This document shows positions 60,067 to 64,000 of a DNA stretch of 64,000 nt, piece after piece. Each line of letters starts with the position of its first letter. Positions within the stretch are counted from its first letter, which is position 1. The notes under the pieces were generated by a model. That model ran no database searches, was not told the DNA's origin, and saw only the letters and a program-made list of their open reading frames with translations. The stretch spans positions 248,001-312,000 of the forward strand of contig NZ_VCQU01000002.1 of the NCBI RefSeq assembly GCF_012932915.1. Direction: 5' to 3'. Source of the stretch: Antrihabitans stalactiti (GTDB lineage Bacteria > Actinomycetota > Actinomycetes > Mycobacteriales > Mycobacteriaceae). The translations under genes were made by a program, and so were the position numbers.

Positions 60067-60091
60067 CGTTTCAACGTACACACACCCAAAA

Positions 60092-60131
60092 CGAGCCCAC
60101 CCGTTCCGCGGTTGCGGAACGGGTGGGCTCG
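60092..60131 (-). terminator. Strong terminator of the glnA1 locus
   Basis: An 18-base perfect stem, the left arm from 60092 (CGAGCCCACCCGTTCCGC) and the right arm ending at 60131, around a four-base loop. On the minus strand it is followed by GTTTTGGG. It lies 16 bases past the glnA1 stop codon and is the strongest terminator in the window, as expected for a highly expressed gene. Confidence 0.88.
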
Positions 60132-60147
60132 TCTGCCTGCTTACGAC

Positions 60148-60177
60148 TTAGACGTCGTAGTAGAGCTCGAATTCGTA
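60148..60177 (-). pseudogene. glnA1: 3' remnant of glnA1 (type I glutamine synthetase)
   Basis: Reading leftwards, the last ten codons are YEFELYYDV and TAA, the conserved C-terminus of type I glutamine synthetase (E. coli ends VEFELYYSV; mycobacterial GlnA1 ends similarly with YYDV). A strong terminator follows. Upstream of the Tyr codon the expected His-Pro is absent and the sequence is unrelated. The gene is cut at about 60178. The direction, convergent with glnE, matches the M. tuberculosis order glnA1-glnE-glnA2. The rest of glnA1 should lie beyond the element, outside the window. Confidence 0.75.
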
Positions 60178-60333
60178 CCTGCGGAAACAATGCCGAGGTC
60201 GGCCATCTCGCGGGCGGTTGACCAGGCATTTTGTTCGTTGGTTTCGTTGGTTGGTCACGGCTGTCGCCGACTGTCCTGCGGACGCTCTGCGGACGGAGCC
60301 GAAAGCTGCGTCGGGTGCGCTCAGTTCGCACCG

Positions 60334-61158
60334 TCAGCTGACCGGCTGCCTCGCAATCGCCTCGTGGGCGGTCCGGACGCACGGCTCGGCACCGTTGACG
60401 AGCGCCTGCGAGAGCCACAGCGCCTCGTGCACGTACTCGTTCTCGGCGTCAGGCAGTCGATCGGGTCGAGCCCAGCGGTACCGCCGAGGGTCGAAGGTCG
60501 GATCGTCGCTCGCCGTGAGGTACCCACGAGTGCGAAGGTCTTGCACCTGAGCCCAGACCTTGTCGAGTTCCTCTCGCAGCTCGCCGATCCGGAGCACGGC
60601 AGCAAAGCGCGCGGTCCCGGCAGTCATCAAACCGGCCTTCTCGAACTTCTGGACGTGCTCTTTCCAGTCAGTCAGTTCGCGGCTCCAGTTGACTGCCTCC
60701 CAGACGCCCGCCTGCCCACCCTCGACCACGAGCGGCGCACCAGACTCGACGGCACGGACAGCCGAGGCGCACCACGGACCGAAGATGTCGGTGATCATCC
60801 CGTCGCCGAGCTTCTTCAACGCCGAGCCCGCTGCCCGCGAGGTACGGAAGGTGATCTGGTTGGACGCTCGCCTGCGCTCTTTTCCGGTGATGCGCGCCTT
60901 CAACGCGAGCTGTTGCAACAGCTCGTCGGCGTTGGTTTCGCCCGCGACGTAGCGATCGGCCACGACATCGCAGAGGTCTTGCATCTCGGACTCTTCGCCA
61001 GCGATCTCGGCGAGCATCCGCCTCTCATCGGCGGTAATCTTGGCCAGCTCGGCGAGTGTTTTCGCGACTCGCTCGGTCGGCTCCACTCCCGAGTTCTTGA
61101 CGATTCGCGACAGAAGCCGCGCCGTCGTCTCTGCGGTGTCGTAGTACTGAGTAGTCAC
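60334..61158 (-). CDS. Element-encoded hypothetical protein, 274 residues
   Basis: A soluble, mostly helical, charged protein beginning MTTQYYDTAETTARLLSRIVKNSGVEP. Residues about 90-180 include ARITGKERRRASNQITFRTSRAAGSALKKLGDGMITDIFG, and the end ERIR-like helices are followed by TFDPRRYRWARPDRLPDAENEYVHEALWLSQALV. No known motif, signal peptide or membrane helix. It is the last gene before the attachment junction and follows the 154-residue protein gene by ten bases, so both share a promoter at about 61690. Confidence 0.6.
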   Translation of the reverse strand: MTTQYYDTAETTARLLSRIVKNSGVEPTERVAKTLAELAKITADERRMLAEIAGEESEMQDLCDVVADRYVAGETNADELLQQLALKARITGKERRRASNQITFRTSRAAGSALKKLGDGMITDIFGPWCASAVRAVESGAPLVVEGGQAGVWEAVNWSRELTDWKEHVQKFEKAGLMTAGTARFAAVLRIGELREELDKVWAQVQDLRTRGYLTASDDPTFDPRRYRWARPDRLPDAENEYVHEALWLSQALVNGAEPCVRTAHEAIARQPVS

Positions 61159-61168
61159 TTTGTATTCC

Positions 61169-61633
61169 TTATGGTTTCGGCGCGTAGCGCGCTCGGTTGC
61201 GAGCTGTGTTCTCTTCGCTGCGGATCATCCGTTCCAGCCGCTTCTCGTCCCAACGGCGCTGGCGTCTCGGTCCGGCCTGAAGGCGTTTGGCAACGAACGC
61301 CTGCAACGGCGTCGGTCCGGGCGCGAACTCGGCGTCAGGCGCGACCGCTGCCAGCTCTTCGACGGCGCGCGCAGTGCGCTCCTCGATCTCGGGACTACGC
61401 CATTTGAAGCCGTCTTCGAAGAGCTTTCTTACGTCTTTGCGCAGCTCTACGAGTGCCGGTCGGTACGGACCAAGCGGGGCCTCGCTCAGAAGTTCCCACT
61501 GCAGCGCGCTCGGGCCGCGCTTGCTGCTCGTGACGAACGCCAGAATTCGCAACGGGTGACCTTGCGGCAGTTGTTTCGGTATCGGCTCAGCGAGAAAGTC
61601 TCCGGTGTCGTAGTTGCTGTTCGCGCTGATCAT
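61169..61633 (-). CDS. Element-encoded hypothetical protein, 154 residues
   Basis: Begins MISANSNYDTGDFLAEPIPKQ. The C-terminal 45 residues are strongly basic (FVAKRLQAGPRRQRRWDEKRLERMIRSEENTARNRARY), which suggests nucleic-acid contact. No family is recognised. It is the first gene of a leftward pair, with a plausible promoter TTGACA-N17-CATTCT at 61697-61669 and two 17-base repeats just upstream. Confidence 0.58.
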   Translation of the reverse strand: MISANSNYDTGDFLAEPIPKQLPQGHPLRILAFVTSSKRGPSALQWELLSEAPLGPYRPALVELRKDVRKLFEDGFKWRSPEIEERTARAVEELAAVAPDAEFAPGPTPLQAFVAKRLQAGPRRQRRWDEKRLERMIRSEENTARNRARYAPKP

Positions 61634-61668
61634 GATCGTGATCGTAGAGCCATTTTTGCGCCCGCGCG

Positions 61669-61697
61669 AGAATGGATTACTCCGCGTGTGTTGTCAA
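61669..61697 (-). promoter_or_regulatory. Leftward promoter of the element
   Basis: TTGACA (61697-61692), 17-base spacer, CATTCT (61674-61669) on the minus strand, about 36 bases before the ATG at 61633. The -35 matches the bacterial consensus exactly. The 61707-61748 repeats lie immediately upstream. Confidence 0.5.
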
Positions 61698-61706
61698 GCC
61701 CAACCG

Positions 61707-61748
61707 TTAATTGCTAATTGACAGACCGGCCTTAATTGCTAATTGACA
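61707..61748. repeat. Two 17-base direct repeats in the element control region
   Basis: TTAATTGCTAATTGACA occurs at 61707-61723 and 61732-61748, period 25 bases, in otherwise GC-rich DNA. Each copy ends in TTGACA on the plus strand. Further TTGTCA motifs flank them at 61691 and 61757. The repeats sit between leftward and rightward transcription units and probably bind an element regulator, or act as iterons. Confidence 0.65.
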
Positions 61749-61928
61749 AACACGCGTTGTCATATGCTCCTGAGCTGCAGTTATGTTGCAAACGAGCTCC
61801 AAATAATCGCCATTGTTCGGTGCGGAAACGCTTCCGCTCCGACAGGTGGAAAGCGCAGGGTCTTCGTTTAGCACAAGTGTAATATAGTCTTGTGGGCTTC
61901 TGCGCCCCAGGAAAGCGAGACCTTCCGA

Positions 61929-62543
61929 ATGAAAGAAGAAACTACTGACGCGCGTTGGATCGCGCTTAAAGCCGGATTGCACGCCGCGATCGGCGAGGCA
62001 TACCTGCCGTTCTGCTTGGAAAATAAGTGCGGCTACAGCGACTACAGCGAGGACTGGACCGCCGAACATCAGGCAGCGTGGGACGCCGAAATGGATCGGA
62101 TCACCGCACGGTGGAAAGAGTTCGAGCAAGGCGAGCTGAGCGAAACCGAGTGGAGACGCGAAACGCTCTGTTCGGCTTTCAGCCTCGACCCCTTGCACGA
62201 AGAAAGTTGGCCTGCTGACACCGCGCAGATCTGGGACCAGGTGCGCCACAGCGTCCAGCACAACTGGGACGTGGAGCGCGCGAACTTCCGAGACCGACTC
62301 GTAGGCAAGCCGACGGTGCGGCAGCTCGTGGAGAAGCTCGTCGCCGGGGAGATGACCACCGAGCAAGTAGCTGCTGCACTGAGCCAGAAAAAGTTCCGAG
62401 TCGCGGTACGCGGTCCGGCAGACGAGAACGACGCTCGCGCGTACGACGACGACTCGTTCGCCGTAGTAGGCCACGCCTATAACATGGGGCGTCTCACCGA
62501 CGAGCAGTACGACCGGCTAGGTGCTGCGTTCGGCGCTGGCTGA
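61929..62543 (+). CDS. Element-encoded acidic hypothetical protein, 204 residues
   Basis: Begins MKEETTDARWIALKAGLHAAIGEAY. The N-terminal two thirds are rich in Glu, Asp and Trp (YSDYSEDWTAEHQAAWDAEMDRITARWKEFEQGELSETEW) and the predicted charge is clearly negative. A short helix KPTVRQLVEKLVAGEMTTEQVAAAL follows. A TATAGT at 61883-61888 is a possible -10. A TTG at 61890 could be a longer start. Small acidic proteins of mobile elements are sometimes anti-defence or DNA-mimic proteins, but no such family matches. Function unknown. Confidence 0.6.
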   Translation: MKEETTDARWIALKAGLHAAIGEAYLPFCLENKCGYSDYSEDWTAEHQAAWDAEMDRITARWKEFEQGELSETEWRRETLCSAFSLDPLHEESWPADTAQIWDQVRHSVQHNWDVERANFRDRLVGKPTVRQLVEKLVAGEMTTEQVAAALSQKKFRVAVRGPADENDARAYDDDSFAVVGHAYNMGRLTDEQYDRLGAAFGAG

Positions 62544-62694
62544 CTGTACAGCCGAGTGGTGCTGCGCGAGTGTGGGATTCGGTCCCTGATTAGCACAACG
62601 GTGCTTTTTGATCTCCGTGGTTCACTTTGCCTGCCGGAAGCCTTCGCCGTAATAGTCTCCGAAGTCTGACCGCGCTGCCCTGAGCGGCCCAGCT

Positions 62695-63228
62695 CTACGC
62701 CAACCGAAGCTCCCTGTCCTCCGCGAACGTTCGCTCCAGCCGCAGCCGACTGCGCTCGTGCGCAAGGTCGCTCGACCACTGCCTGCGGACCGCAAGGCGC
62801 GCACTGAGTTCGAAGACCTGCACAACGTCGGCCTCGGTGGCGATCGTCGGATGCACTACCACTGTCTGCAAAACGTCATCGTCATCGCGATCGAACAGAG
62901 CCACGGCCCACATGTCCCGCATCGACGTAGGCAAAGCCGATGACATGTCGTGTGTTTGCCTGTGCAGGCGCAGCTTCGCCAGTGCCCAGCTCAACTCGGG
63001 TCTGCTCCATCTGCTGCGCGTGCTGGACGCCAGCTCGCCTGTGGCTGCGTACCGCAGGGTGGTTGTTGTGAAGGGCACGCCCTCGACTGTGGCCGGGTAG
63101 CGCCTGGTGCGAGCCGGGCGCTGTGCTGCTGGTGCCAGGTGCTGCACCCCCAGATACATTGCGCTGTCACGTTTTAGCGCAAGCGTATTCAGCTCGGTCT
63201 TAGTACCGTCCGGCTCAGTGATCCACAT
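62695..63228 (-). CDS. Element-encoded hypothetical protein, 177 residues
   Basis: Begins MWITEPDGTKTELNTLALKRDSAMYLGVQHLAP with GGAAGGGAAT just before the ATG. The middle contains SMRDMWAVALFDRDDDDVLQTVVVHPTIATEADVVQVFELSARLAV, and the end is charged (HERSRLRLERTFAEDRELRLA). No known domain, signal peptide or membrane segment. It is divergent from the small gene before the recombinase. Beyond its stop, another frame continues with text RSDFGDYYGEGFRQAK, so a 3' frameshift cannot be excluded. Confidence 0.58.
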   Translation of the reverse strand: MWITEPDGTKTELNTLALKRDSAMYLGVQHLAPAAQRPARTRRYPATVEGVPFTTTTLRYAATGELASSTRSRWSRPELSWALAKLRLHRQTHDMSSALPTSMRDMWAVALFDRDDDDVLQTVVVHPTIATEADVVQVFELSARLAVRRQWSSDLAHERSRLRLERTFAEDRELRLA

Positions 63229-63284
63229 ATTCCCTTCCTACCGTGGCCCTCGCATTCGGCGGTAAGGGTGGGACAATCGAGAGC

Positions 63285-63512
63285 ATGTTGGACACGCTCG
63301 ATGACGCATTCAGAGGGCTTACGCCTGCAGAGCGAGTGTCTGCGGCTCGTGAGATCGCCGAGCGGTTCTCTGTGGTGCTGGCGAGTATCGAGCGGGGCGA
63401 GATCGGAGCCTCGCCTACCGAAGTCGCCCGTATGGAGGGTGCGGTAGCCGTGCTCGAAGCACTCGGAAGTCCGCAAATTCGTAACAGTGTGGACCGTCAG
63501 TGTTACACTTGA
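63285..63512 (+). CDS. Small helical protein upstream of the recombinase (possible accessory factor)
   Basis: 75 residues from the ATG at 63285 (a GTG at 63243 would add 14). Helical text: LDDAFRGLTPAERVSAAREIAERFSVVLASIERGEIGASPTEVARMEGAVAVLEALG. It ends only three bases before the recombinase ATG, so the two are co-expressed. Near its end GTAACA (63481) and TGTTAC (63501) form an inverted repeat that might serve as an operator. The position suits a regulator or directionality factor, but no motif proves it. Confidence 0.6.
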   Translation: MLDTLDDAFRGLTPAERVSAAREIAERFSVVLASIERGEIGASPTEVARMEGAVAVLEALGSPQIRNSVDRQCYT

Positions 63513-63515
63513 GCC

Positions 63516-64000
63516 ATGCCCGCTACCGATTCCCAAGCTCCCGCAGTCCCCGGTCGGCGTCGCCGTAGTCGCGCAACCGCACCCGCGAACACCTGCGTTG
63601 CCTACACGCGCGTCAGTACCGACGAGCAGGTCGAGTCGGGCGCGGGCCTTGCGGCGCAGCGGGCTGCTATCCAAGCCGAGGCAGACCGCCGAGGTTGGAC
63701 GATCGTTGCTTGGCACACCGATGAGGGTGTCAGCGGTGGCGTAGCTCCCGCGCGCCGTACCGGCCTGTCTGCCGCTCTGGCCGCTGTATGCAACCGTGAG
63801 GCGGCGATGCTGGTCGCGGCCAAGCTGGACCGTGTGAGCCGGTCTGTCGCCGATATGGGCCGTTTGCTGGTCGAAGCCGAGCGCAAGAGCTGGCACTTCG
63901 TCACCTGCGACATGGCGGTCGACATGAGCACGCCGCAGGGTCGCGCTGCCGCGCACATGATGGTGGTCTTCTCAGAGTTGGAGCGCGGACTGATCTCGCA
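63516..64000 (+). CDS. Serine recombinase (resolvase/integrase family), 3' end outside window
   Basis: 161 codons are visible. After a basic 25-residue leader comes the resolvase catalytic domain: VAYTRVSTDEQVESGAGLAAQRAAI with the nucleophilic Ser at residue 34, DEGVSGGVAPARRTGLSAAL, VAAKLDRVSRSVADMGRLL with the catalytic Arg, and MMVVFSELERGLIS at the edge. Whether it is a small resolvase or a large integrase with zinc and coiled-coil domains depends on the missing part. It is the best candidate for the enzyme that inserted the element into glnA1. Confidence 0.9.
   Translation, partial: MPATDSQAPAVPGRRRRSRATAPANTCVAYTRVSTDEQVESGAGLAAQRAAIQAEADRRGWTIVAWHTDEGVSGGVAPARRTGLSAALAAVCNREAAMLVAAKLDRVSRSVADMGRLLVEAERKSWHFVTCDMAVDMSTPQGRAAAHMMVVFSELERGLIS

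Follow-up and report, generated by a model that had tools for sequence, protein, structure and literature searches.

Introduction

That an attP may carry the 3′ end of a conserved gene and restore that gene upon integration is a long-known principle, and icd and prfC are further protein-coding genes targeted in this manner. Elements have also been found at the 3′ end of guaA (PMC12016501). These, and those at trmE (SGI1), resemble the elements described here in having the 3′ end of a conserved protein gene as their site, with a different target gene. The nearest parallel for one integrase family devoted to one protein-coding gene is given by the dusA integrases, which are found with prophages and islands of very different content, have 21-bp consensus att repeats, and whose gene alone is common to all these elements (PMC4482086). 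This pattern is shared by the glnA1 elements, with the difference that the dusA elements target the 5′ end of dusA, whereas those at glnA1 target the 3′ end, in actinobacteria. AICEs have, like the element of genome G000 described below, a tyrosine integrase at one end and a 3′-end target; their tyrosine integrases are reported to use mostly tRNA genes (PMC3218068), whereas the present element sits at a protein gene and no translocase match was found among its scanned ORFs.

The preliminary description of this locus knew of no described element at glnA1. This was too broad: in Macrococcus, prophages have been reported downstream of glnA (PMC12016501), and in S. aureus, phage genes that separate glnA from the following gene (PMC9570271). 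Both cases concern integration beside or downstream of glnA, as here, but in Firmicutes, and the passages concerned do not identify the glnA 3′ end as the att core. Among the matches listed in the open-access literature, a scope that leaves subscription papers mostly outside, no report of an actinobacterial glnA attachment site was found.

Results

Two copies of the glnA1 end

The window, that is, the whole stretch of 64,000 nucleotides analysed, corresponds to positions 248001-312000 of contig C12 of Antrihabitans stalactiti (genome G000), and the element it enters continues past the window end on the same contig. Direct repeats of at least 11 bp were searched by script between window positions 60081-60420 and C12:306001-332000. 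One exact 30-bp pair came out, with copies 18,188 bp apart; the remaining direct repeats among the matches listed were of 11-13 bp. The first copy, the attL core, is made of the last 30 bp of glnA1 (Table 1), and the DNA on its element side is not glnA1. The second copy, the attR core (C12:326337-326366, window scale 78337-78366), is the 3′ end of a complete glnA1, and an 18.2-kb element lies between the two. The preliminary description had placed the left junction of an integrated element inside the glnA1 3′ end, had supposed that replacement C-terminal codons would be supplied at the other junction, and had advised reading past position 64000; reading on revealed this other junction and the complete gene, as it had anticipated. 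The stop codon is TAG at glnA1 (attR) and TAA at the remnant (attL). Given these repeats, the native end of the gene has been displaced as attL.

Table 1. Features at the left end of the element, on the window scale (positions above 64000 lie beyond the window).
Feature	Position	Strand	Remarks
Native glnA1 terminator-like hairpin	60087..60132	-	stem 60091-60109 / 60114-60132, then TTTT; by eye
attL core	60149..60178	-	native final 30 bp of glnA1, now displaced: YEFELYYDV (9 codons) + TA of TAA stop
Left part of integrated element	60179..64000	.	runs on to C12:326336 (window scale 78336)
Distal arm-like motif pair, G000	60276..60294	-	two GTCCGCAG, 11 bp apart
Element ORF, 274 aa	60334..61158	-	without Pfam or PADLOC match
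Element ORF, 154 aa	61169..61633	-	without Pfam or PADLOC match
Element ORF, 217 aa	61890..62543	+	without Pfam or PADLOC match
Element ORF, 177 aa	62695..63228	-	without Pfam or PADLOC match
Small serine recombinase, resolvase/invertase type	63516..64000, on to 64247	+	243 aa, PF00239
HNH protein and DUF6602 protein	66078-67121 and 68675-69589		element cargo

Integrase and gene content of the element

A 429-aa tyrosine integrase with domains PF00589 and PF14659 adjoins glnA1 tail to tail, ending a few bases from its stop. The residues R, K, HxxR, H and Y are readable in its translation, presumably in the roles usual for this family. Judging from its position, its family and the presence of relatives at the same place, it is most likely this enzyme that carried out the integration. 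In the preliminary description, the DNA beyond the junction was said to lead to a serine recombinase. That gene is real, and its presence inside the element leaves room for a scheme in which it mobilised the element, the tyrosine integrase being a bystander. Its product is however a protein of only 243 aa, of the resolvase/invertase type, with PF00239 as its sole domain, and lies internally, about 3.3 kb from attL, whereas the tyrosine integrase adjoins attR and has relatives sitting at glnA1 in other genomes. Integration driven by the serine recombinase was rejected on these grounds, and we hold it to be very improbable. One PHROG 'DNA invertase' match was found among the element ORFs.

Gene content was scanned with Pfam (18 genes) and PHROGs (20 ORFs, 25 of 26 families shown). 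A 917-aa protein combining PF09250 (Prim-Pol) and PF13148 (DUF3987) is a replication protein, as expected of an AICE; at a strict threshold (E ≤ 1e-150) it had a match in its own genome only, among 401. The element also encodes a phage-type HTH regulator and an HTH_17-like, excisionase-like protein, below the Pfam cut-off, of which one member also matches a PHROG excisionase family. Of the two cargo proteins, the HNH protein partly resembles a type IV restriction enzyme for modified DNA, and the DUF6602 protein has a PD-DExK match and weaker NucC matches; their genes may possibly be anti-phage genes. Two further ORFs gave no match with Pfam or PHROGs.

Among the ORFs scanned, the element has neither the head, terminase and tail genes of a temperate prophage nor the FtsK/TraB-type DNA translocase of an AICE, the scan covering some of the small ORFs. 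It does combine an integrase and a regulator with a replication-type gene while lacking the full complement of structural genes, as PICI-like satellites do, and it has the tyrosine integrase beside one att site, the terminal repeats equal to the 3′ end of the target and the intact target gene of 3′-end elements. The scanned ORFs included no recognisable capsid, terminase, translocase or transfer gene, and the element therefore probably relies on a helper to move. That it is instead a decayed prophage or an AICE remnant appears unlikely, though not strongly so: its arrangement of integrase and HTH regulator is common to a 38.7-kb prophage at the same site, and Prim-Pol proteins occur in AICEs too. 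The lack of any structural, terminase or FtsK/TraB-type match among the scanned ORFs speaks for the satellite-like, helper-dependent element, although decay could explain this absence as well.

The site without the element

When three genomes of the same genus (G001, G002 and G003) were compared with a 701-base query having the glnA1 stop codon as its last three bases, similarity stopped at base 700, 700 and 697, thus at most 4 bases from the end of the stop. The sequence just 3′ of this stop varies between species. The stretch adjoining glnA1 aligns in order with window positions 33.7-54.2 kb in G001 and 45.8-55.0 kb in G003; no alignment to the window was obtained for the 2.6 kb (G001) and 9.4 kb (G003) directly preceding glnA1, and the core was the sole element DNA found in these stretches. 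Arm pairs of the kind given in Table 1 are absent at the same-genus empty glnA1 sites. Because the intergenic DNA differs or does not align, the empty site was recognised by three features: the order of the genes, the core, and the absence of arm pairs. Alignment with relatives, which the preliminary description had recommended, showed in this manner that the order of the left-flank blocks and glnA1 is conserved in G001 and G003, where the element is missing.

Integrase relatives in actinobacteria

The integrase was matched at E ≤ 1e-40 in 45 of the 401 family genomes. Loci were obtained for 30 of these (15 were without a locus), and the integrase was convergent with glnA1 in 17 of them, our own genome counted, and not at glnA1 in 13. 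A draw of 394 genomes across the class yielded 11 with a match at E ≤ 1e-80. In 10 of these, which belong to six family groups, the integrase locus also contains glnA1; two of these ten loci have a partial glnA1 at a contig end (L138, about 260 bp away, and L143), and three of the ten genomes were already in the family set. A named collection had glnA1 beside the integrase in 7 of 8 loci, including those of Rhodococcus qingshengii, R. globerulus, Phycicoccus, Lapillicoccus and Geodermatophilaceae. The three sets overlap, and their counts are therefore not additive. Identity to the integrase was 28-30% for the 20 phage records listed of 1708 matching, and 33% for the best plasmid match among those listed. 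In G340, the same integrase match was present on four contigs (C4, C13, C14 and C17), meaning either repeated copies or an assembly effect.

On a tree of 46 rows, the glnA1 users fall inside a 32-row group (support 100/100), which also has two ccsB users and three rows with other or unknown targets; the glnA1 label requires four changes. One clade integrase (L142) has no glnA1 match in its locus, and G010 has a second one away from glnA1 (L109). In two others (L111 and L113), the integrase is directly followed by the 3′ end of a gene for cytochrome c biogenesis, with the C-terminus HSYAGLN and ccsB/resC-like by eye; this is a target switch within the glnA1 lineage. For L093 and L114, the likely 3′-end targets, again judged by eye, are respectively a putative ychF-like GTPase gene and a putative metallopeptidase-like gene. 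Five integrases about 37-42% identical to that of G000 (L085-L089) make up a separate group. In all 5 loci scanned, the integrase faces the 3′ end of a complete RNase P RNA gene (Rfam RF00010) in convergent orientation, and these users are also separate on the tree.

Attachment cores and arm motifs

Twenty-two distinct loci with the integrase at glnA1 were available, and an exact distal repeat of 19-30 bp was found in 13 of them, 2.4-38.8 kb away. A convergent integrase is present in each of the 13 elements so delimited, L090 being a 2.4-kb remnant with a partial integrase. The other nine yielded no distal repeat, within about 57 kb for two of them (G121, R. qingshengii, and G244) and within 0.5-10 kb for seven. 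In 12 of the 13 elements, both core copies agree over 20 bp, made of the last 19 coding bases and the first stop base. In L102, base -5 is the end of the 19-bp repeat; outside it, the copies differ at two synonymous positions, in the last two codons, and in the stop. The stretch common to all 13 is therefore -19 to -5, and the difference between the attR and attL copies places the crossover upstream of base -4 in L102. The gene copies comprise nine versions of the 20-bp end, and the stop codons differ between the two copies in 7 elements out of 13.

Arm-like tandem octamers, 11 bp apart, were noticed at the element ends (GTCCGCAG, GTACGCAG, GCCCGCAG and similar). In G000, the partner of the distal pair is a triple copy at window-scale 78258-78287, beyond the window. 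With a degenerate pattern, picked after reading the element ends, pairs were found at most 200 bp from the glnA1 end in 11 of the 13 elements and from the far end in 10, and none elsewhere in these elements (interiors, both strands, about 209 kb); variants were recognised by eye at both ends of L108 and L061 and at the far end of L090. The paired GTCCGCAG motifs near both ends are probable arm sites of the integrase. When 30 glnA1-end loci were checked, the arm pattern was present in 7, and two known occupied loci were missed. At four loci (L034, L037, L041 and L044), glnA1 ends are followed by arm-like pairs in genomes with no integrase match at E ≤ 1e-40, and these may be remnants or more distant elements. 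Two pattern hits were obtained in G348, because this genome has two full glnA1-type genes (C1 near 2377387 and 5434690; L134 and L135), about 3 Mb apart, the proteins of which are 88% and 85% identical to that of G000. The R. globerulus and G258 elements have a further set of element-end motifs beyond the distal core, which suggests that they sit in tandem arrays.

A related integrase, 60% identical, was found in an IMG/VR record of 11,496 bp (UViG_2795386047_000001). The ends of this record overlap exactly by 72 bp, with one arm pair near each end, and the order across the overlap is left arm, core, right arm, as in an attP. It looks like an excised circle with its attP, or else a head-to-tail tandem copy. 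The 28-bp glnA1-end pattern was found in 0 stretches of IMG/VR, and a shorter core pattern in one 4.8-kb contig (ends only).

A 30-bp repeat alone could arise from other events, and one may imagine that the G000 locus results from a duplicated glnA1 fragment, or from a rearrangement by homologous recombination, rather than from site-specific integration. Such an origin is hardly believable in view of the same architecture in 13 elements, each with its convergent integrase and with cores that follow the host's own codons, of arm motifs placed at the ends only, of relatives without the element, and of the circular-looking attP record.

Other elements at the site

The G258 element (38.7 kb) is a prophage: a scan of 34 of its 44 picked ORFs gave matches for portal, terminase, head, tail and endolysin. 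L099 has a similar size. Three elements of 8.9-10.9 kb were pooled (31 of 43 ORFs): three members had head-protease matches, and at least two had head-protein matches; of 48 families, the 25 shown included neither a portal nor a terminase. In a pool of two elements of 7-9 kb (17 of 19 ORFs), GntR-type regulators were found in two members. With a prophage, small elements having capsid genes, and others all at glnA1, the site is therefore common to different kinds of elements.

glnA1 and its terminator

The glnA1 gene at the far end is a complete ORF of 491 codons, or 478 aa from the start used by homologues, and from residue 4/5 to residue 478 its product matches chains of the M. tuberculosis-type glutamine synthetase 1. 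No glutamine synthetase was therefore lost. The preliminary description had considered that the host might depend on another synthetase, which the intact gene, with its full C-terminus, rules out. Genome-wide, 7 matches to the glutamine synthetase family were counted.

The preliminary description had also expected altered regulation, given that glnE lies in the same window; the analysis lends this no support. The sole visible regulatory change is the separation of glnA1 from its native terminator. The native hairpin is on the host side of the attL core, now 18 kb from the gene. Its best 45-nt window has about -43 kcal/mol, compared to -23 on the element side after glnA1 in G000; a consensus terminator scan listed nothing at either junction, the native hairpin included. 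The best 45-nt hairpin within 100 nt after the stop was then compared between the element and native sides of the 13 elements. In 11 of them the element side had the weaker hairpin, by 1.6 kcal/mol or more. The exceptions are L101, which differs by 0.6 kcal/mol, and L103, where the order is the opposite; for L096 and L100, the side taken as 'native' looks like element DNA too.

Discussion

The locus is very probably explained by an 18.2-kb integrative element whose attP underwent site-specific recombination with the glnA1 3′ end, most likely through the action of the 429-aa tyrosine integrase; for its mobility, the element probably depends on a helper. Given the repeats, this attP carries a copy of the last codons, so that glnA1 was restored at attR by the element's own copy, now with a TAG stop, and the original last 30 bp, with the TAA stop and the terminator, were moved 18 kb away as attL. 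Excision would then yield a circle like that of the related IMG/VR record.

A wider reading joins a class-wide docking site, one shared integrase lineage and nitrogen-tuned excision, and is quite unlikely to hold as a whole. The last six to seven codons of glnA1 would be, according to it, a class-wide and long-lived docking site in actinomycetes, used by an integrase lineage common to prophages, capsid-coding small elements and defence-like islands, each element carrying a host-matched copy of the gene end. Without its strong terminator, glnA1 would be read through, in antisense, into the convergent integrase gene, and, as this read-through would come from a nitrogen-regulated gene, the nitrogen state of the host would tune excision.

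For the actinomycetes, our analysis shows an essential nitrogen-assimilation gene to be a recurrent attachment site. It sets exact boundaries for a group of prophages, small elements and cargo islands, predicts an attP for them, and supplies a marker by which more of them may be found. The integrases and their cores are candidates for single-copy integration leaving the gene intact, and the loss of the native terminator indicates a possible link between nitrogen state and excision of the element.
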